Source of the DNA: Clostridia bacterium
GTDB lineage: Bacteria; Bacillota; Clostridia; UMGS1883; UMGS1540
Assembly: GCA_017450025.1 (NCBI GenBank)
Contig: JAFSYJ010000027.1
Coordinates: 1 to 64,000, forward strand
DNA: 64,000 bases
Direction of reading: 5' to 3'
In this document: positions 1,689 to 47,355 of the stretch, one piece after another
Numbering within the stretch: position 1 is the first letter of the stretch
Layout of the letters: each line of letters opens with the position of its first letter
Program-made: the position numbers and the translations under genes
The notes under the pieces: model-generated
Seen by the model: the letters and a program-made list of their open reading frames with translations, nothing else
Told to the model about the DNA's origin: nothing
Database searches by the model: none

Positions 1689-1719
1689 CACATTTTGAGT
1701 AAAATCAGAATGTGTTTTT
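1689..1719 (+). terminator. Hairpin with T-run 24 bases before the recombinase-domain gene
   Basis: CACATTTTGA (1689-1698) pairs with TCAGAATGTG (1705-1714) with one G-U, and a run of five T follows. It could end upstream transcription or act as an attenuator of the gene at 1743. Confidence 0.55.
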
Positions 1720-1742
1720 CAATTTTGAAAGGAGAAATTTTA

Positions 1743-2135
1743 ATGAAAGAAAACAATAAAAATGAAAAAAGAGAAATGGAGGAAAATAAAATGATCAAAT
1801 TAGATTTAATTCAATCAAGGCGTTTCGGAAGAATATGTTATGGATTTGGCAGAGATGAAAATGGACTTGTTTATGTGAAAGAAGATGAAGCTCAAGTGGT
1901 AAAAACAACGTTTTCTATGGCTATAAATGGTCATAGTTTACAGGACATTCAAAGTGAATTATTTAGTAAAGGTATAAAATCTCCGTCGGGAAAAGATAAA
2001 TGGACAAGAGATGTTATTGATAAGATGATAAACAATAAAAAGTATGTGCCATTTATTATTTCATTTGAAGACTATTTTATGGCTCGAGGAGAAAAGGAAT
2101 TGCGTTGCCGATATGACAGAGATTTAGCATACTAA
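1743..2135 (+). CDS. Recombinase-domain-only protein (serine recombinase family, no catalytic domain)
   Basis: The product is 130 residues. From about residue 25 it matches the 'recombinase' DNA-binding domain of large serine recombinases: the YGFGRDENGLVYVKEDEAQVV stretch, then HSLQDIQSELFSKGIKSPSG, W-TRDVIDKMINNKKYV. The N-terminal resolvase domain with its catalytic serine is absent, as are the zinc ribbon and coiled coil, so it cannot recombine DNA alone. The start ATG at 1743 has AAAGGAG 8 bases upstream; the first 24 residues are mainly charged (Lys/Glu/Asn). It may be a DNA-binding regulator derived from a mobile element or simply a remnant. A degenerate small ORF follows at 2194. Confidence 0.7.
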   Translation: MKENNKNEKREMEENKMIKLDLIQSRRFGRICYGFGRDENGLVYVKEDEAQVVKTTFSMAINGHSLQDIQSELFSKGIKSPSGKDKWTRDVIDKMINNKKYVPFIISFEDYFMARGEKELRCRYDRDLAY

Positions 2136-2193
2136 AGTTGTTTTGCTGATTCATTATATAATTATTCTATCCGATTGAAAGGAGTAATTGAAA

Positions 2194-2338
2194 ATGAGCA
2201 AATCAGCAATTCAAAATCAGTTTTGGTATGTTGCTACAAATAATCGATACTTAAAACCGATGTGGGTAAGAGGGAATGCTTGAAGCAACTAAATTTGCAA
2301 TGGGTGATTATTTTGACAATTTAGTGAGAAATATATAA
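2194..2338 (+). pseudogene. Small frameshifted ORF after the recombinase-domain gene
   Basis: A good ribosome site (AAAGGAG at 2178-2184) precedes ATG 2194, which opens a 29-codon frame (MSKSAIQNQFWYVATNNRYL...) ending in TGA at 2283. A second frame running 2276-2338 continues with MLEATKFAMGDYFDNLVRNI. One base shift near 2276 would join them into a product of about 48 residues. I do not recognise the product. It is either a broken small gene or two overlapping micro-ORFs. Confidence 0.35.
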
Positions 2339-2448
2339 ATGAACTTGTCATAAATATCAATAGTTTATCAATTAAATATTATTAACTTTAATATAATTAT
2401 TTGTAAATGTAAATTTTTAAAGCAACATAAACATATAATGCAATTTAA

Positions 2449-2477
2449 TTGACTTTTATGTCGAAAAATGATATAAT
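2449..2477 (+). promoter_or_regulatory. Promoter of the TIR-domain gene
   Basis: TTGACT (2449-2454), 17 bp, TATAAT (2472-2477); it ends 14 bases before the start codon, so the 5' leader is only a few bases long. Confidence 0.8.
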
Positions 2478-2491
2478 AAAGGAGGAACAAA

Positions 2492-3532
2492 ATGGTAAGG
2501 AGAAAGCATATGAAAGTATTTATAAGCTGGTCAGGAACTAGAAGTAAACAAATTGCTTTAATATTACGGGATTGGTTACCTACAGTTATTCAAGCATTGG
2601 AACCCTTTGTTTCTTCTGAAGATATAGAAAAAGGTGCAAGATGGAATACCGAAATAGCCCAAGAATTAAACGAATCTACATTTGGTATAATATGTGTAAC
2701 AAAAGACAATCTTTCTGCTCCTTGGTTGAATTTTGAAGCAGGTGCATTATCAAAAACAATTGATAACAGTTACGTTGCACCATTATTATTTGATGTGAAA
2801 CCCTCAGAGTTGAAAGGATCACCGATATCTCAATTTCAATCAACATCTTTTACCATAGAAGACATGAAAAGATTAATTGAAACTTTAAACACTGCTGCTG
2901 GAAACTGTTTAAATACATCAAGGCTAAATAAGGCTTTTGAATTATGCTATCCAGATCTTGAAAAAACCATAAAAGAATTAAGAGAAAAGCCATGTGAGAA
3001 AGACGAAGAAACGGAACAAACACCTAACAGTCTTGATTCAAACATTCTTGAAGAACTATTAGAAACAGCTAGAAATACGCAACGCCTGTTAGGAAATACA
3101 GATTCAAAATTATATGGAAATCTTGATGATGTAAACAAGAAGGTCGATGAAATTATAGATAGGCTTGAAAGGCAAAGAGATATTGATATACGTCGTGCAA
3201 CTAGAAAAATAAGGCCTATGCTTATAGAGGAGTTATCATTTGATTCATATGATTCTGAAATTTTTCCATATAATGTTTTAATGGTTTTATCTATATTCAA
3301 GGATGATATTCCATGGTTATATGATGCAGGTGCTGAACTTGTAAGGACTCTTGAGTCGAACACTGCAAGAAAAACCAAATCTGAGGCAGTCAAAAAGTTT
3401 ATAAATGTTTTGGAATATACATGTGGTCATCCAATATTTAGAGAAATATTGGGTACACGAAAAGACTTGATGAGATTAAGGGAATTGCCGATGTTTTTGG
3501 AACGAACTTTAGAAAGATATATTGAGAATTAG
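2492..3532 (+). CDS. TIR-domain protein with C-terminal helical domain (candidate NAD-consuming defence effector)
   Basis: The product is 346 residues. Residues 7-150 form a bacterial TIR domain of the standalone type: MKVFISWSG at the N terminus, IEKGARWNTEIAQELNES, FGIICVTKDNL and PWLNFEAGALSK. Glu82 in FEAGAL is where the catalytic glutamate of NAD-hydrolysing TIR domains lies. Residues 180-232 are a predicted coiled coil (LEELLETARNTQRLL, then VDEIIDRLERQRDI); 240-346 is an unrecognised helical region. No membrane segment is seen. Start: AAAGGAGG lies 7 bases before ATG 2492; a second ATG at 2510 also has a ribosome-like site. It sits between mobile-element remnants and a YhcG nuclease gene. 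Such TIR proteins often act in antiphage systems, but no partner (cyclase, SIR2, Argonaute) is adjacent, so the defence role is inference. Confidence 0.85.
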   Translation: MVRRKHMKVFISWSGTRSKQIALILRDWLPTVIQALEPFVSSEDIEKGARWNTEIAQELNESTFGIICVTKDNLSAPWLNFEAGALSKTIDNSYVAPLLFDVKPSELKGSPISQFQSTSFTIEDMKRLIETLNTAAGNCLNTSRLNKAFELCYPDLEKTIKELREKPCEKDEETEQTPNSLDSNILEELLETARNTQRLLGNTDSKLYGNLDDVNKKVDEIIDRLERQRDIDIRRATRKIRPMLIEELSFDSYDSEIFPYNVLMVLSIFKDDIPWLYDAGAELVRTLESNTARKTKSEAVKKFINVLEYTCGHPIFREILGTRKDLMRLRELPMFLERTLERYIEN

Positions 3533-3628
3533 TAGAACAAGGTGTTCATTAGTAGGGTCGGGTTAATATGTTACGAAAATATAAAATATGCCTTTTAAAT
3601 CGAACAAAAACAGAAGAGGGTGAATTAC

Positions 3629-4645
3629 TTGAACGATATGTTGAATAGTGATTTCATTATAAGAGAAACATACGATGCGGTCAGAAATAGTATTATCAAT
3701 GCGCAGAATAAAGTATATAATGCCGTTAATGCTGCGATGGTACAAGCCTATTGGGAAATAGGAGAACAGATTTATAAAGCATGTGGAGAAAATGAACGAG
3801 CTGAATATGGCAAAGGATTGATAAAATATATAGCAGAAAATTTATCAAGAGAATTTGGTAAAGGCTTTGATGAAAGAAATCTCAGAAAAATGCGTCAGTT
3901 TTATATGGCGTATCCAATTCGGGACTCACTGAGTCCCGAATTGAGCTGGACACACTACAGAAGATTGATGCGCATAGAGGATGAAAAAACAAGAGCGTTT
4001 TATACGGAAGAATGTGTTAAATCGGGTTGGAGTGTAAGACAACTTGACAGGCAAATAAATTCTTTTTTCTATGAAAGATTGCTTTCGAGTCAAGATAAGA
4101 AATCGGTAAGTGATGAGATTCAAACTTTGGAACCTAAACCTGAATATGAAAAAATCATCCGTGATCCATATGTGCTTGAATTCCTGGACTTAGAACAAAA
4201 TCCGCACTTCTATGAAAAAGAACTTGAACAGGCTGTAATAGATCATCTTCAAAAATTCTTGTTAGAGCTTGGCAGAGGTTTTTCATTTGTAGCAAGGCAG
4301 AAACATATTACATTTGATGACAGGCATTTTTATATTGACCTCGTATTTTACAATTATATTTTAAAATGTTTTGTTTTAATAGATCTGAAAATAGGGGATT
4401 TGTCTCATCAGGATTTAGGGCAGATGCAAATGTATGTAAACTACTATACAAGGGAAATGATGAATGAAGGAGATAACCCTCCGATTGGCATTGTTCTCTG
4501 TGCGGATAAAAGTGATGCAGTAGTAAAATACACATTGCCGGAAGATAATAATCAAATATATGCTTCAAAGTATAAATTATATATGCCGACAGAGGAAGAA
4601 TTTAAGAAAGAATTGAAACTTGACGATTATAAGAAAATAGACTAA
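3629..4645 (+). CDS. YhcG/DUF1016-family PD-(D/E)xK nuclease-domain protein
   Basis: The product is about 338 residues. An N-terminal DUF1016 domain is seen (VNAAMVQAYWEIGEQIY, then YGKGLIKYIAENLSREFGKGF and LSWTHYRRLMRI), followed from about residue 165 by the C-terminal nuclease-like domain. Asp237 (FYIDLVFYN) and Asp252-x-Lys254 (LIDLKIG) fit the PD-(D/E)xK metal site. The family is common next to type I restriction loci and in defence or mobile regions; its substrate is not established. Start: the ribosome-like AGAGGGTG at 3615 suits TTG 3629; a GTG at 3620 is possible but lies too close to that site. It lies 97 bases after the TIR gene with no terminator seen between them, so the two may share a transcript. 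An unusual perfect DNA palindrome lies inside the gene at 3915-3943. Confidence 0.85.
   Translation: MNDMLNSDFIIRETYDAVRNSIINAQNKVYNAVNAAMVQAYWEIGEQIYKACGENERAEYGKGLIKYIAENLSREFGKGFDERNLRKMRQFYMAYPIRDSLSPELSWTHYRRLMRIEDEKTRAFYTEECVKSGWSVRQLDRQINSFFYERLLSSQDKKSVSDEIQTLEPKPEYEKIIRDPYVLEFLDLEQNPHFYEKELEQAVIDHLQKFLLELGRGFSFVARQKHITFDDRHFYIDLVFYNYILKCFVLIDLKIGDLSHQDLGQMQMYVNYYTREMMNEGDNPPIGIVLCADKSDAVVKYTLPEDNNQIYASKYKLYMPTEEEFKKELKLDDYKKID
3915..3943. repeat. Perfect 13-bp inverted repeat inside the YhcG gene
   Basis: CAATTCGGGACTC (3915-3927), a 3-base loop, then GAGTCCCGAATTG (3931-3943). It encodes the linker PIRDSLSPELS within the DUF1016 domain. A perfect arm this long is unusual in coding DNA. 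Confidence 0.9.
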
Positions 4646-42554: not shown

Positions 42555-43373
42555 TTACAGCAATTTAATTCTATCAATTTCTTCAAGCATTTCCGGCAAA
42601 ATGCCTTGATTATTACTGCTTTTCAGTGTGATGTCCGCGGCCTTTTTAGCTGCATCTTCCGCATTTGACGGCGCAAAGCTCAAAGCAGGCGACAAAAGCA
42701 TTTCAATATCGTTGTCGTTATCTCCGGCTACAATAATGTTTTTGTAATCAAGCTTCAGCAATTCACAGAATTTTGCAAGTGCAACGCCTTTTGATGTTGT
42801 TTTGTTTACAGCCTCATAAAAAATATTGTATGAGCGTATAAGCTTGTATTCGTGATAAAAATCACTTTTTTCCATAAAAGTCTTGAATTCATCGATGTTT
42901 TCAGGATAATCGGCAAAAACGATTTTGAGCCACGGTGAGGTTATATTGCGGTAATCCTCCCTTTCAACAAACAAATCCTCGTTTTGCTGATGAAGATATG
43001 TACCATAGCTTTCACGATAATAATATATGTGATGCGGAGTTATTATTTCTATTCCCATTTCGGGGAATTTTTCTTCAACAAATGCAATAAGATTTTCAGC
43101 TTCTTTGGGAAGCGGATCTACCCATATGTATTTTCCGGTTGCCGTGTCGTAAATGGCACTGCCGTTTTGGCATATTATCGGAATATCCGCCTTTATGCGT
43201 TCGAGATAGAAATTTGCGCCCTGAAGCGTGCGGCCCGTACAAACGGAAAAAGTTCCGCCCTCTCTGCGGAAATATTCAAGCGCGTCAAGATTTGCGCGCG
43301 GTATCTTCATATCAGTATCTATAAATGTTCCGTCTATATCACATAATAAGACAATTCCGGAGTATTTACCCAT
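42555..43373 (-). CDS. Cof-type HAD hydrolase
   Basis: The product is 272 residues. HAD motif I is LLCDIDGTFIDTD near residue 11, motif II is SVCTGR, and the C-terminal motifs are SKGVALAKFCELL and VAGDNDNDIEMLLSPALSFAPSNA. The C2-type cap in the middle marks the Cof/YkrA subfamily, which dephosphorylates sugar phosphates or cofactors such as pyridoxal phosphate and FMN; the substrate is unknown. It lies 32 bases after the repressor gene on the same strand and may be read from the same promoter. Confidence 0.9.
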   Translation of the reverse strand: MGKYSGIVLLCDIDGTFIDTDMKIPRANLDALEYFRREGGTFSVCTGRTLQGANFYLERIKADIPIICQNGSAIYDTATGKYIWVDPLPKEAENLIAFVEEKFPEMGIEIITPHHIYYYRESYGTYLHQQNEDLFVEREDYRNITSPWLKIVFADYPENIDEFKTFMEKSDFYHEYKLIRSYNIFYEAVNKTTSKGVALAKFCELLKLDYKNIIVAGDNDNDIEMLLSPALSFAPSNAEDAAKKAADITLKSSNNQGILPEMLEEIDRIKLL

Positions 43374-43405: not shown

Positions 43406-44107
43406 TTAATCAGCAATTTCCCGTATAAGCAGCTTGGGTATGCCGAGAATTTTAAAATTTTCTGCGTTGGCGTTTTCAATACGGCGGACAGGGTATGCAG
43501 GATTTACGGACACTATCCTTATCCATTCTTCGCCTTCTTTGAACTCAATTTTTTTAAGCGAGGCGTGATCATCGCTATCACACAGTACAACGCCTGTCTG
43601 ACCGCTGTAATCCACGGAGGACTTTCGCAGCACAAGCACCTTGTCGCCGTCTTTATAATCCGGATACATACTGTCACCCTTAACGCGCATAACAAAAAAA
43701 TCGTCGCGGCTGTGACCGCTCAAAGCAGAAAACGGAACATCGACCGTTTCGCCCGTTTGGGTGTGAACATTAAAATCAGACACATCATTCAAAACAGAAT
43801 ATGTTGCATAGCCGCCTTTTAAGCTTGTGTCATTATATGAGGAATTCAAATAACCGCTGTCATTGGAAGGCTCAGAAATAGGGAGGTTGTTCTGAAAAAG
43901 TCCGGAATCGTTCCACCCCATAAGATATGCCGGAGTAACATCAAGAGCGTTTGCAATTTTAGATATTTTATCGAGCGGAATATTAGTCACAATCCCGTTT
44001 TCATATTTAAAAACGGTTTGAATGGCACAGCCTACTCTTTTAGCGACATCTGACTGTGTCAGCCCTAATTTTTCGCGTTCTTGTTTTATTCTTTCTCCAA
44101 TCGTCAT
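43406..44107 (-). CDS. XRE-family repressor with S24 (LexA/CI-type) peptidase domain
   Basis: The product is 233 residues. Residues 4-62 are an XRE helix-turn-helix (LGLTQSDVAKRVGCAIQTVF). Residues 130-233 are an S24 domain with Ser146 (VKGDSMYPDYKDGD) and probably Lys185 (HASLKKIEF) as the catalytic dyad. The linker (about 65-125) shows no Ala-Gly or Cys-Gly cleavage pair, so LexA-like self-cleavage is not obvious. GGAGG lies 8 bases before ATG 44107. Five AACTTAnnAAGTT-like sites lie between this gene and the divergent zincin gene, one inside its own promoter, so it should repress both. No integrase or structural phage gene is nearby. Confidence 0.92.
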   Translation of the reverse strand: MTIGERIKQEREKLGLTQSDVAKRVGCAIQTVFKYENGIVTNIPLDKISKIANALDVTPAYLMGWNDSGLFQNNLPISEPSNDSGYLNSSYNDTSLKGGYATYSVLNDVSDFNVHTQTGETVDVPFSALSGHSRDDFFVMRVKGDSMYPDYKDGDKVLVLRKSSVDYSGQTGVVLCDSDDHASLKKIEFKEGEEWIRIVSVNPAYPVRRIENANAENFKILGIPKLLIREIAD

Positions 44108-44127
44108 CTGCTTTACCTCCAGAAAAT

Positions 44128-44156
44128 ATGTTAACATACTAAGTTAAAAAAGTCAA
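44128..44156 (-). promoter_or_regulatory. Promoter of the XRE-S24 repressor gene
   Basis: On the minus strand TTGACT (44156-44151), 17 bp, TAACAT (44133-44128). Operator-like site 1 fills the spacer. Confidence 0.7.
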
Positions 44157-44347
44157 GAAATTAAAAAAAATAAAAAAATAACTTGACAAGTCACCACAAA
44201 TGTTGTATTATTGACTTAAGGAGTTAATAATTTGTCGAAATTTGTAGAAAAAGCTCAAAAATGAACGCATAGAAAATCTAAATAATCATAAATCAAATTT
44301 TTTTGCAATGCGTTTAACTTAATAAGTTAATTTAAACTTAAAAAGTT
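44131..44347. promoter_or_regulatory. Five operator-like 13-bp palindromes (AACTTAnnAAGTT type)
   Basis: Sites: 44133-44145 AACATACTAAGTT; 44180-44192 AACTTGACAAGTC; 44213-44225 GACTTAAGGAGTT; 44316-44328 AACTTAATAAGTT; 44335-44347 AACTTAAAAAGTT. Site 1 covers the repressor promoter, site 2 the -35 box and site 3 the start point of the zincin promoter; sites 4 and 5 lie in its leader, 19 bp apart. Confidence 0.8.
44183..44211 (+). promoter_or_regulatory. Promoter of the zincin/polyvalent-protein gene
   Basis: TTGACA (44183-44188), 17 bp, TATTAT (44206-44211). The transcript has a leader of about 175 bases that contains operator-like sites 4 and 5. Confidence 0.75.
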
Positions 44348-44392
44348 ATTTCAGTTGCGTCGGTTTTATGATAAAAAAGGAGATATAATACT

Positions 44393-46651
44393 ATGATTAA
44401 TTTGGCAGAAGGCAATGTTATGACAGATATTTATACTGATACGAAAGATATAATTAAAAAAGCGGAGATTGTTCATAAAAATAGAGGCAGATATACATAC
44501 AGCGGCAAAGATTTAAGTTTACAAAGGATACTGACGGGCGATGGGGAGGTTATATTCCGTAAAATAAAAGCCAGAGCGTTCCGTCGCGACAAAAAGATGA
44601 GGGCAATTAAGGAGTACAACAGAAAACGCGGAATAAAAACTGTATTTATAAGCGGTTATGCGATAAACGGCGACAGCATTGTGAGAGGGTTTGCACATAA
44701 GGGGACAGCATATATAATGTATGACCACCCTTATTATACGCCCGAACAGATAAACCATCACGAAATGGTGCATCTTAAAGCCAATGACGCCGCTTATAAG
44801 AAGTTTTACAGCAGCGTGTTTTGCAAGCTGACCACAGATGAAAAATCCAAAATTCTTATGGCGTTAAATAAAAAATACGCTCCGCAATTTATAAAAAGCT
44901 TTTTGAGAGCAAATCCCGATGCAACAAGCAGGCAGACGATTCAGGCATTAATTTTATATTTGTCAGAGGAAGCTATGGCTGACCTGAACGGCGGAATGGA
45001 TGAAATGGCAGAGCATTCCGCAAGATTTGCCGACGAAATATTGACATTCAGAGCTGCGGCTGACAGTGCCGTCAGAGATACAAATTTTACGGAAGAAAAA
45101 TGTGTTATGAGCAGCGAATTAAGACTCAGCGTGGAATACAGCGGCTCACCAAATGAGCCGCAAAACAAAAAATGCGTAGCGATTCATAATGTGTCGGCGG
45201 AAAACTTTTTGCGAATGTATAACAAAGGGTACGGCGGTATGCCGGGAATATCTGCCGCAATATTATATTACACAAGCTGTTTTACAGATTACGGAGCATT
45301 GTCGTTTGTACTTAAGCCTGACTCAATAAATCCGCAAAATCAAAATAATTTGATATTCAGCTCTGACGCGTGGTCGTCAATGTTTCCGTCTGTTGTTATG
45401 AAGCCAAATAAAAAGGCGGTCGAAAAACTTGCCAAAAGGCTTGGGGCTTCTGCGTTACAGATTATGAATAATTATTTTGAAAACAAAAGCGAAGCGACAG
45501 CATTACAGTATTTGTCGGAAGAAAAGGCGATAAAGGAGCTTTTTATAAAAGAGAAGGGAGGACTCCGCAAAAGTGCGTTTGAAGAGCTTGACGAGTGGGA
45601 CTCGGAGTTTGCAGAAGAGCTTACGCCAATGATAAAAAGGGGAGTTACTGCAGACGACATAATATACAAAGATGAGCTTACAAGTGAGTTTTTTGACAAG
45701 CTCGGTTTTGTTATTGACAGAATGGGGGAGTACGATTTTGGCAGACCGAACAAAAGGCTTTTGGCGTTTGCGCGTGACGGCAACAAGGAAGCGCAAAATC
45801 TGTTCAGAAAGGACTGGCTTAAATATACAAAAGGTTCGGTTGAAGGGTATATCCTAAATCATCAAAGAGAGTTTAATAAATTTGTCAAAAATATTATTTC
45901 AGATGTCAGTCAGGGGGAAGTCCTTAAAGACAGGGAGGGCAATATTTATGACGACAATGTTGATAATATTCTGAAGATAATGTTTGAGATTGATAAATAC
46001 CAATTTGCAAATTATGAAAGCATAGATAACCTGACAGCAAAATTGGCAAAGAAATACACCTCGCTCAATGAGCTTCGCGCCGACACGGACAAGCTGCTGC
46101 CGTTATCAGATGACATCAGGCAGTCGGTTGCCGACAAGCTCAATAACAGGCTTTCAGGTATTATTGATAAAATAGCAACGCCTGATGAATTCGGTGACAG
46201 CATAAAGAATACAGGCAATATTTTGCTCAGGGCTATCAATGGCAACGGCGGGTATTCTGAGGAGTCCGTTATACAGAGCTTTAAGAAAGAAAACATTGAA
46301 GTAAATGAAAATACCGCAAATGAAATAATAACCCTTTTTGATAACATAAAAACCGCACCTGTGAAATTTTTTGAAGCAAAGCTTAACAGGCTTCTCAAAT
46401 GGAATGAAGTCGGAGCCGCGGTTATTCCCGACAATACAGATGCGGAAGTTGCCTATGCTTTATTTGATTTGGGAATAAAAGTCGTAAAATACGAATTTGA
46501 AAACAATGACAGCCGTTTAAAAGCTGTAGAGCAATTTCCCGAAATGAGATTCAGCAGGGAAGAATATCTTAAAAATCAAACAGGAGATGAAAGTCACGCA
46601 GTAATTGCTTGCATTATTTTTTTTGACTTTTTTTTGACGGAAAACGGCTAA
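44393..46651 (+). CDS. Zincin-like metalloprotease fused to a phage-type 'large polyvalent protein' domain
   Basis: The product is 752 residues with no signal peptide. Residues 85-215 look like a zincin: HHEMVH at 122-127 gives HExxH (His123, Glu124, His127), and EEAMAD at 192-197 supplies a third ligand. Residues 260-335 (VAIHNVSAENFLRMYNKGYG, GMPGISAAILYY, FGxxS-like GALSFVLKPDSINP, SSDAWSSMFP) match a domain I know from large polyvalent proteins of phages and conjugative elements. Residues 350-740 are helical and unassigned. The last residues (ACIIFFDFFLTENG) look unnatural, as if the frame was cut or shifted near 46590. AAAGGAG stands 10 bases before ATG 44393. The gene is divergent from the S24 repressor and under operator control. 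Its substrate is unknown; the repressor itself is one possible target, as in ImmA/ImmR. Confidence 0.75.
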   Translation: MINLAEGNVMTDIYTDTKDIIKKAEIVHKNRGRYTYSGKDLSLQRILTGDGEVIFRKIKARAFRRDKKMRAIKEYNRKRGIKTVFISGYAINGDSIVRGFAHKGTAYIMYDHPYYTPEQINHHEMVHLKANDAAYKKFYSSVFCKLTTDEKSKILMALNKKYAPQFIKSFLRANPDATSRQTIQALILYLSEEAMADLNGGMDEMAEHSARFADEILTFRAAADSAVRDTNFTEEKCVMSSELRLSVEYSGSPNEPQNKKCVAIHNVSAENFLRMYNKGYGGMPGISAAILYYTSCFTDYGALSFVLKPDSINPQNQNNLIFSSDAWSSMFPSVVMKPNKKAVEKLAKRLGASALQIMNNYFENKSEATALQYLSEEKAIKELFIKEKGGLRKSAFEELDEWDSEFAEELTPMIKRGVTADDIIYKDELTSEFFDKLGFVIDRMGEYDFGRPNKRLLAFARDGNKEAQNLFRKDWLKYTKGSVEGYILNHQREFNKFVKNIISDVSQGEVLKDREGNIYDDNVDNILKIMFEIDKYQFANYESIDNLTAKLAKKYTSLNELRADTDKLLPLSDDIRQSVADKLNNRLSGIIDKIATPDEFGDSIKNTGNILLRAINGNGGYSEESVIQSFKKENIEVNENTANEIITLFDNIKTAPVKFFEAKLNRLLKWNEVGAAVIPDNTDAEVAYALFDLGIKVVKYEFENNDSRLKAVEQFPEMRFSREEYLKNQTGDESHAVIACIIFFDFFLTENG

Positions 46652-46687: not shown

Positions 46688-47305
46688 TCATCTTATAAAG
46701 CTTGTGAACACACGCTTTTCGGTTTCGGGAAGCCCGAATTTTTCTTTTCCGAGAGCGATGGACTTGATTAAAAATGTCATATTTCTTGCAAGTACGCGCA
46801 TTATTTGCAAGCCTTCTTCATCTTGCGCAGCCTCGCCCTGCTCTCTGCCGTGTGCGCTGTTCCAATACTGGCTTGGCGCAATAGGCATATTTGAAATGGT
46901 AAAATACTTATTAAGCCTGTCAAATGTTGCCGTTGTACCGCCGCGGCGCGCAACGCATACTGCTGCACCGACCTTCATGGTTTTATCAAAATGCGTGCTG
47001 AAAAACAAGCGGTCTAAAAAAGCTGTAACGGTGGCGTTTGGACCTGCAAAATAAACAGGGGAGCCTATAACGATACCGTCGCAGGCTTCGAACTTCGGAG
47101 CGGCTTCATTTACGGCATCTTCAAATACACATTTGCCTTGTTCAGAGCATTTTCTGCAAGCGATACAGCCGCGAATTGCTTTGTTTCCTATATGTATTGT
47201 TTCTGTTTCAACGCCGTTTTCCGCAAAAATCTTTTCCATTTCCGCAAGCGCAATAGCTGTGTTGCCGTTAGCGTTGGGACTTCCGTTTACAAGTAAAACT
47301 TTCAT
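46688..47305 (-). CDS. Flavodoxin-fold NADPH-dependent FMN reductase
   Basis: The product is 205 residues. The FMN phosphate loop is NGSPNANGNTAIAL (residues 6-19). Next comes a Cys-rich stretch CIACRKCSEQGKC, common in iron-sulfur flavoprotein-like and multimeric reductases, and IVIGSPVYFAGPNATVTAFLDR. It probably reduces flavin, quinone or nitro compounds; the partner is unknown. The ATG at 47305 follows GGAG by 6 bases. It lies 50 bases after the clpX gene on the same strand and may be read through from it. Confidence 0.87.
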   Translation of the reverse strand: MKVLLVNGSPNANGNTAIALAEMEKIFAENGVETETIHIGNKAIRGCIACRKCSEQGKCVFEDAVNEAAPKFEACDGIVIGSPVYFAGPNATVTAFLDRLFFSTHFDKTMKVGAAVCVARRGGTTATFDRLNKYFTISNMPIAPSQYWNSAHGREQGEAAQDEEGLQIMRVLARNMTFLIKSIALGKEKFGLPETEKRVFTSFIR

Positions 47306-47355
47306 AATAAACTCCATTCTTAAAAGATGACCGCTACCAATGGCAGCGGTGTAAT

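Follow-up and report, generated by a model that had tools for sequence, protein, structure and literature searches.

Within a 64,000-nucleotide stretch of Clostridia DNA, the window of this analysis, a divergent gene pair was found which we interpret as a captured phage effector kept silent by an immunity switch likewise captured from a phage. In our estimate the probability of this interpretation is about one half. The pair consists of two ORFs (43406–44137 on the minus strand and 44393–46651 on the plus strand) with a gap of about 255–285 bp between them (Table 1). An initial annotation of the window had described an isolated S24 repressor facing a zincin protein, and both ORFs are indeed present and isolated. 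The pair is bordered by genes for a HAD hydrolase (42555–43373) and an FMN reductase (46688–47317). SPFH/NfeD-like and parC-like genes lie upstream on the side of the HAD hydrolase; clpX, clpP and tig lie downstream beyond the FMN reductase. Neither an integrase nor a virion gene was found near the pair and core genes flank it on both sides, as had been stated before. The window corresponds to contig C9 in a genome of 1.32 Mb (42 contigs, 87.5% complete) from a gut-type bacterium of a Clostridia-type lineage, and the five family members represent other genera.

Table 1: Features of the divergent gene pair, with positions in the window.
Feature	Position	Strand	Basis or remark
S24 (CI-type) repressor, HTH_3 and Peptidase_S24	43406–44107 (ORF open from 44137)	−	Pfam, alignments
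Promoter-like site of the repressor gene, TTGACT-N17-TAACAT, 9/12	44128–44156	−	consensus match only
Operator O1 (predicted), TTAACATACTAAGTTAA	44131–44147	.	overlaps the repressor promoter-like site
Promoter-like site of the effector gene, TTGACA-N17-TATTAT, 11/12	44183–44211	+	consensus match only
Operator O2 (predicted), TTGACTTAAGGAGTTAA	44211–44227	.	at −10/+1 of the effector promoter-like site
Operator O3 (predicted), perfect palindrome TTAACTTAATAAGTTAA	44314–44330	.	identical sequence in a phage CI-Cro region
Operator O4 (predicted), TAAACTTAAAAAGTTAT	44333–44349	.	O3–O4 19 bp start to start
Effector, 752 aa, compact polyvalent protein	44393–46651	+	
Zincin metallopeptidase domain, about aa 30–239; HEMVH 122–126, EEAMAD 192–197	44480–45109	+	
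PBECR5 predicted RNase domain, aa 252–416; conserved H265, N266, S287, D325	45146–45640	+	
C-terminal cassette module, aa 515–723; FEAK block 660–663, R666, E672, R708	45935–46561	+	

The identity of the repressor was determined by profile searches. These revealed an HTH_3 domain (E = 6e-16) and a Peptidase_S24 domain (E = 2e-14), and the protein belongs to PHROG 4, phage repressor (E = 7e-37). The ATG at 44107 is the more likely start codon and would yield a protein of 233 aa. The Shine-Dalgarno sequence GGAGGT is located just upstream of it, and the protein then begins with MTIGERIK like its phage relatives. The Ser146/Lys185 dyad of the initial annotation, whose numbering fits this start, is present and invariant across the alignments. 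The claim that an Ala-Gly cleavage pair is missing also holds: neither Ala-Gly nor Cys-Gly occurs 20–75 residues before the catalytic Ser146. At the aligned scissile position the repressor carries T-Y, or S-D or D-F in the other alignment, which goes by residue spacing. Five of six aligned relatives exhibit ACG or SCG at this position and the sixth SAG. Thus, self-cleavage in the usual mode is unlikely. The protein shares the HTH domain, the S24 domain with its Ser/Lys dyad and clustered operator-like sites in a divergent control region with CI/S24 phage repressors, and it lacks the linker scissile pair of RecA-stimulated self-cleavage known from LexA and CI-type proteins. A search with TIGR00498 found no LexA in the assembly (87.5% of the genome), and SOS control of the pair via LexA is unlikely.

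The gap between the genes holds a 17-bp palindrome, TTAACTTANTAAGTTAA, in four copies, which had not been described in the initial annotation. When palindromes of any family were counted the gap scored 4, compared with a maximum of 2 across 2000 dinucleotide shuffles of the same AT-rich region. No window tile outside, and not overlapping, the control region of the pair exceeded a value of 2. The four operators in the gap indicate that the two genes are wired together here and are not merely adjacent. No second operator cluster was found in the genome; the remaining matches were single, weak and fewer than those of a reversed-pattern control. The sole site elsewhere in the genome with two mismatches (C25:8786) has no 90-aa ORF nearby and belongs to no cluster. 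A wider regulon of the repressor was also considered and rejected, since operator-like sites occur genome-wide at or below the control level.

In an independent scan, 2.9 million viral contigs were searched for the exact palindrome. Eight contigs matched. One of them (L180, IMGVR_UViG_3300039008_000323) is a temperate phage with an integrase and a related S24 repressor, and four palindrome matches lie around this repressor and a divergent HTH gene of Cro size, that is, in the CI-Cro region. The repressors of L180 and of the window have the segments MTIGERIK and KYENGIVTNIP in common. The related repressor and its operators thus support both the operators of the window and a phage origin of the switch. 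The pair resembles the S24/CI immunity region of L180 in its HTH-S24 repressor and in the same clustered 17-bp palindrome in a divergent control region. It differs in that the effector takes the place of Cro and the early genes, in that no integrase is near, and in that the scissile Cys-Gly is missing. Judged from its scissile-type pair, the L180 repressor is probably cleavable.

The effector was found to be related to phage polyvalent proteins. The homology proposed in the initial annotation was confirmed and made more specific: PBECR5 (PF18814), a domain not recognized before, was detected at aa 252–416 (E = 1.1e-20, 74.9 bits at a gathering cut-off of 25), and aa 515–723 correspond to phrog_22978 (E = 5e-26), a phage protein family of 3513 aa in PHROGs. 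Both modules constitute one cassette of about 300–570 aa which shows the same order in phage proteins and occurs in about 90 phage or prophage contigs. A profile scan of IMG/VR revealed 86 stretches with the cassette, most of them in ORFs of 2000–4000 aa and some in compact proteins of 540–980 aa. In GTDB the cassette is encoded by 11 contigs in long ORFs, among them prophage contigs of other genomes. No close relative of the 752-aa protein was found in IMG/VR or in GTDB contigs, and it matched no PADLOC defence-system model.

The effector retains 30 of the 47 strongly conserved columns of the cassette, including the polar residues H265, N266, S287, D325, E661, K663, R666, E672 and R708. H265, the candidate active-site histidine, is conserved in 98% of the phage rows, and the effector carries Ser, the candidate active-site alcohol residue, at the DAW(S/T) position. 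That PBECR5 acts as an RNase is predicted for the family. An AF2 model of the cassette reached a pLDDT of 82.8 and a pTM of 0.75. Its best matches in BFVD, with E-values as low as 1e-26, were without exception polyvalent or nuclease proteins of phages, and a comparison with the PDB yielded no significant match. The last ~28 aa of the effector, which follow the conserved RFS end, show no homology and form a random-looking tail.

The HEMVH and EEAMAD motifs of the zincin domain were located as announced in the initial annotation and align with those of homologues. The corresponding fold model is of low confidence (pLDDT 41). A phage protein of 3636 aa (L082) carries both a zincin of the window type and the cassette, and is the one such protein found. 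Consequently, the zincin probably left the phage pool along with the cassette. With PBECR5 and a zincin that has its homologue in this polyvalent protein, the effector contains at least two unrelated activity domains from the set typical of phage polyvalent proteins (MPTase, PBECR, LPD); its gene does not belong to a mobile element with virion or transfer genes close by.

The proposed role of metallopeptidases in polyvalent proteins is the processing of the protein itself (PMC5512222). In 80 phage polyvalent proteins the linker motif [RK][FY]S[LVIAM][KRS] was observed 42 times at domain borders, compared with 8.75 occurrences expected from shuffling. Looser versions, RLS and RFS, flank the cassette in the window protein (45122–45136 and 46547–46561). 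This RFSLK-like motif may be a candidate site for cleavage by polyvalent zincins.

Further relatives of the zincin lie in fragments within the chromosomes of other Clostridia (G042, G076 and G243). In two species of one genus (L023 of G042 and L024 of G076) zincin ORFs are located between thrS and hemW. In G243 a polyvalent-type gene interrupted by a stop codon adjoins a Y1 transposase (L025). A further genome, G113, encodes a 1043-aa PBECR3 protein next to a Y-family polymerase (L168, 8378–11509). All of these polyvalent-type genes or fragments stand isolated between core genes.

Codon use and GC content of the pair correspond to the values of core genes. Thus, the pair is not a fresh arrival or derives from a well-adapted phage. 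A TIR/YhcG islet in the same window deviates in composition. This islet (1695–4645) is a recent defence-like acquisition which consists of a truncated serine recombinase (PF07508), a TIR-TM protein (PADLOC PDLC03016, E = 5e-94) and a YhcG/DUF1016 nuclease (PDC-S02, E = 7e-146), with a GC content of 0.28–0.34 compared with about 0.42.

Several known systems resemble the pair in part. ImmR/ImmA, PprI/DdrO and CapH/CapP (PMC10233336) likewise combine an XRE-type repressor with a neighbouring HExxH protein, and CapH/CapP also restrains a cell-killing defence. In the window, however, an S24 domain forms part of the repressor. The zincin does not belong to M78 by profile, is fused to a nuclease and would itself be the product of the repressed gene. 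Phage polyvalent proteins (PMC5512222) share the zincin-like metallopeptidase, the PBECR5 RNase domain and the whole cassette, whereas the effector has 752 aa instead of 2000–4000, lies away from virion genes and possesses a dedicated repressor. MuF polymorphic toxins of temperate phages (PMC5576092) are also phage-encoded; their toxin domains, nucleases or peptidases, are part of proteins delivered by the virion. In contrast to these, the effector has no MuF domain by Pfam, no downstream immunity ORF and no location in a phage.

The initial annotation suggested a possible protease-regulated effector by analogy with ImmA/ImmR and PprI/DdrO. In such a model the zincin would cleave the repressor, which would produce a self-amplifying protease switch. 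Adjacency and shared control agree with this model, and a repressor without a self-cleavage pair needs another route of inactivation. The Peptidase_M78 profile, however, gave no match to the zincin at E ≤ 1, so that by profile it is not an ImmA/IrrE peptidase; an ImmA-like protein of the same genome served as positive control and scored 6e-22. Moreover, the zincin is of the polyvalent type, no S24 repressor was found near the L082 phage protein, and such a loop could start only if some effector were made by leaky expression; no sensor is seen. Protease regulation of this kind is unsupported and in our estimate very unlikely. The other half of the former proposal, a domesticated phage switch, is supported by the CI-type repressor, by operators as in a temperate phage, by an effector from phage polyvalent proteins and by the lack of mobile-element genes nearby. 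The M78 control protein (L170, C23, 543–1043) is encoded with XRE regulators near a prophage of the same genome which contains a terminase and a P22/SU10-type portal (L176, C23, 12443–16737). On the same contig a reverse transcriptase (PF00078, E = 7e-17; L175, 15527–16630, about 170.5–171.6 kb) lies among phage-like genes with a Fic protein in the same stretch; it is possibly part of a diversity-generating retroelement.

The pair could also be a silent prophage remnant in which a deletion left an immunity repressor, its operators and a trimmed polyvalent piece next to each other, with no selection acting now. We regard this as a serious though less probable alternative. No S24 repressor ORF was found in the retrieved flanks of ~97 cassette loci or of the zincin loci, so that the pairing is seen in one genome only; the initial annotation had named such a lack of conserved pairing as part of what would contradict its proposal. 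Isolated polyvalent fragments, some of them clearly broken, occur in other Clostridia chromosomes without surrounding phage genes, and the unrelated sequence past the RFS end would suit a trimmed gene. On the other hand, both ORFs are unbroken in AT-rich DNA and the predicted catalytic residues are retained. The effector has its own Shine-Dalgarno sequence and a near-consensus promoter-like site which is overlapped by an operator, and the composition of the pair equals that of the resident genes. Polyvalent genes of phages sit among late virion genes (PMC5512222) and not opposite CI, and a simple deletion therefore explains the arrangement poorly. Thus, a remnant fits the single occurrence and the unrelated tail, and it fits the operators, the promoter, the Shine-Dalgarno sequence and the kept residues less well. 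It is most unlikely that the pair is a minute mobile element or satellite which depends on the integrase and antirepressor of a helper phage for its mobilisation. Some satellites are built as a repressor facing an effector. Here, however, no integrase is present and the composition is like that of core genes. Att-like direct repeats flanking the pair are missing as well; one 22-nt pair matching at 82% is unevenly placed and was taken as chance. In the four comparable family genomes tig-clpP-clpX is kept and the gene order past clpX varies, so that no empty insertion site can be defined.

We therefore favour a captured effector, a trimmed piece of a giant phage protein, held by a captured switch. 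Its occurrence in one genome, the lack of conserved pairing and of close homologues, the random-looking tail and the low-confidence zincin model count against it, as do the family-predicted nature of the RNase activity, the lack of a PDB match and the fact that neither an immunity gene nor a known trigger was found for the effector. According to this captured-switch reading, the repressor would bind O1 within its own promoter and limit its own synthesis. Bound to O2–O4, at and behind the start of the near-consensus promoter, it would silence the 752-aa protein. Loss or inactivation of the repressor would release the effector, most likely by an antirepressor or another factor of an incoming or resident phage and not by RecA-driven self-cleavage. 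Since the repressor has no scissile pair, no LexA was found and no antirepressor gene is adjacent, a trans-acting phage factor would be the most natural trigger. A precedent is given by the Gifsy repressors GfoR and GtgR, non-cleavable phage repressors under antirepressor control (PMC3121763). Like them, the window repressor shows no self-cleavage signature, and induction probably needs another protein. The Gifsy proteins are small and have no S24 domain, whereas the window repressor has one and no antirepressor is known for it.

Once made, the zincin might process the effector itself or other targets, and the PBECR5 cassette would cut RNA and stop the cell or the phage. Since the effector has no immunity gene, its expression should cost the cell or target the phage. 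A captured phage nuclease locked by a repressor might serve the cell against phages or limit its own growth. In addition, the orphan repressor could confer immunity to phages with the same operators. A rather speculative extension is a two-gene anti-phage device in which the CI repressor, having lost its self-cleavage site, acts as sensor. A phage factor that disables it would free the RNase-protease, the induction machinery of the phage thereby setting off the trap, and phages that share the operators would at the same time be blocked by the repressor.

Both parts, a captured polyvalent protein and a phage CI switch, are already known; the wiring of the two is new and was seen once. Phages are thought to inject polyvalent proteins into cells. 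Such proteins have been noted in host genomes outside mobile elements, and it was suggested that hosts retain some for use against invaders, although no example of their control had been worked out (PMC5512222). The locus described here illustrates how such a protein could be kept without harm, namely by wiring the captured effector to a repressor of phage origin together with the operators of this repressor. The pair is small, with two genes and four defined, predicted binding sites, and lends itself to reconstruction in a laboratory host. Such a system could serve as a test bed for three questions: do PBECR5 cassettes cleave RNA, are they processed by their zincins, and can an S24 repressor that is non-cleavable sense phage factors?
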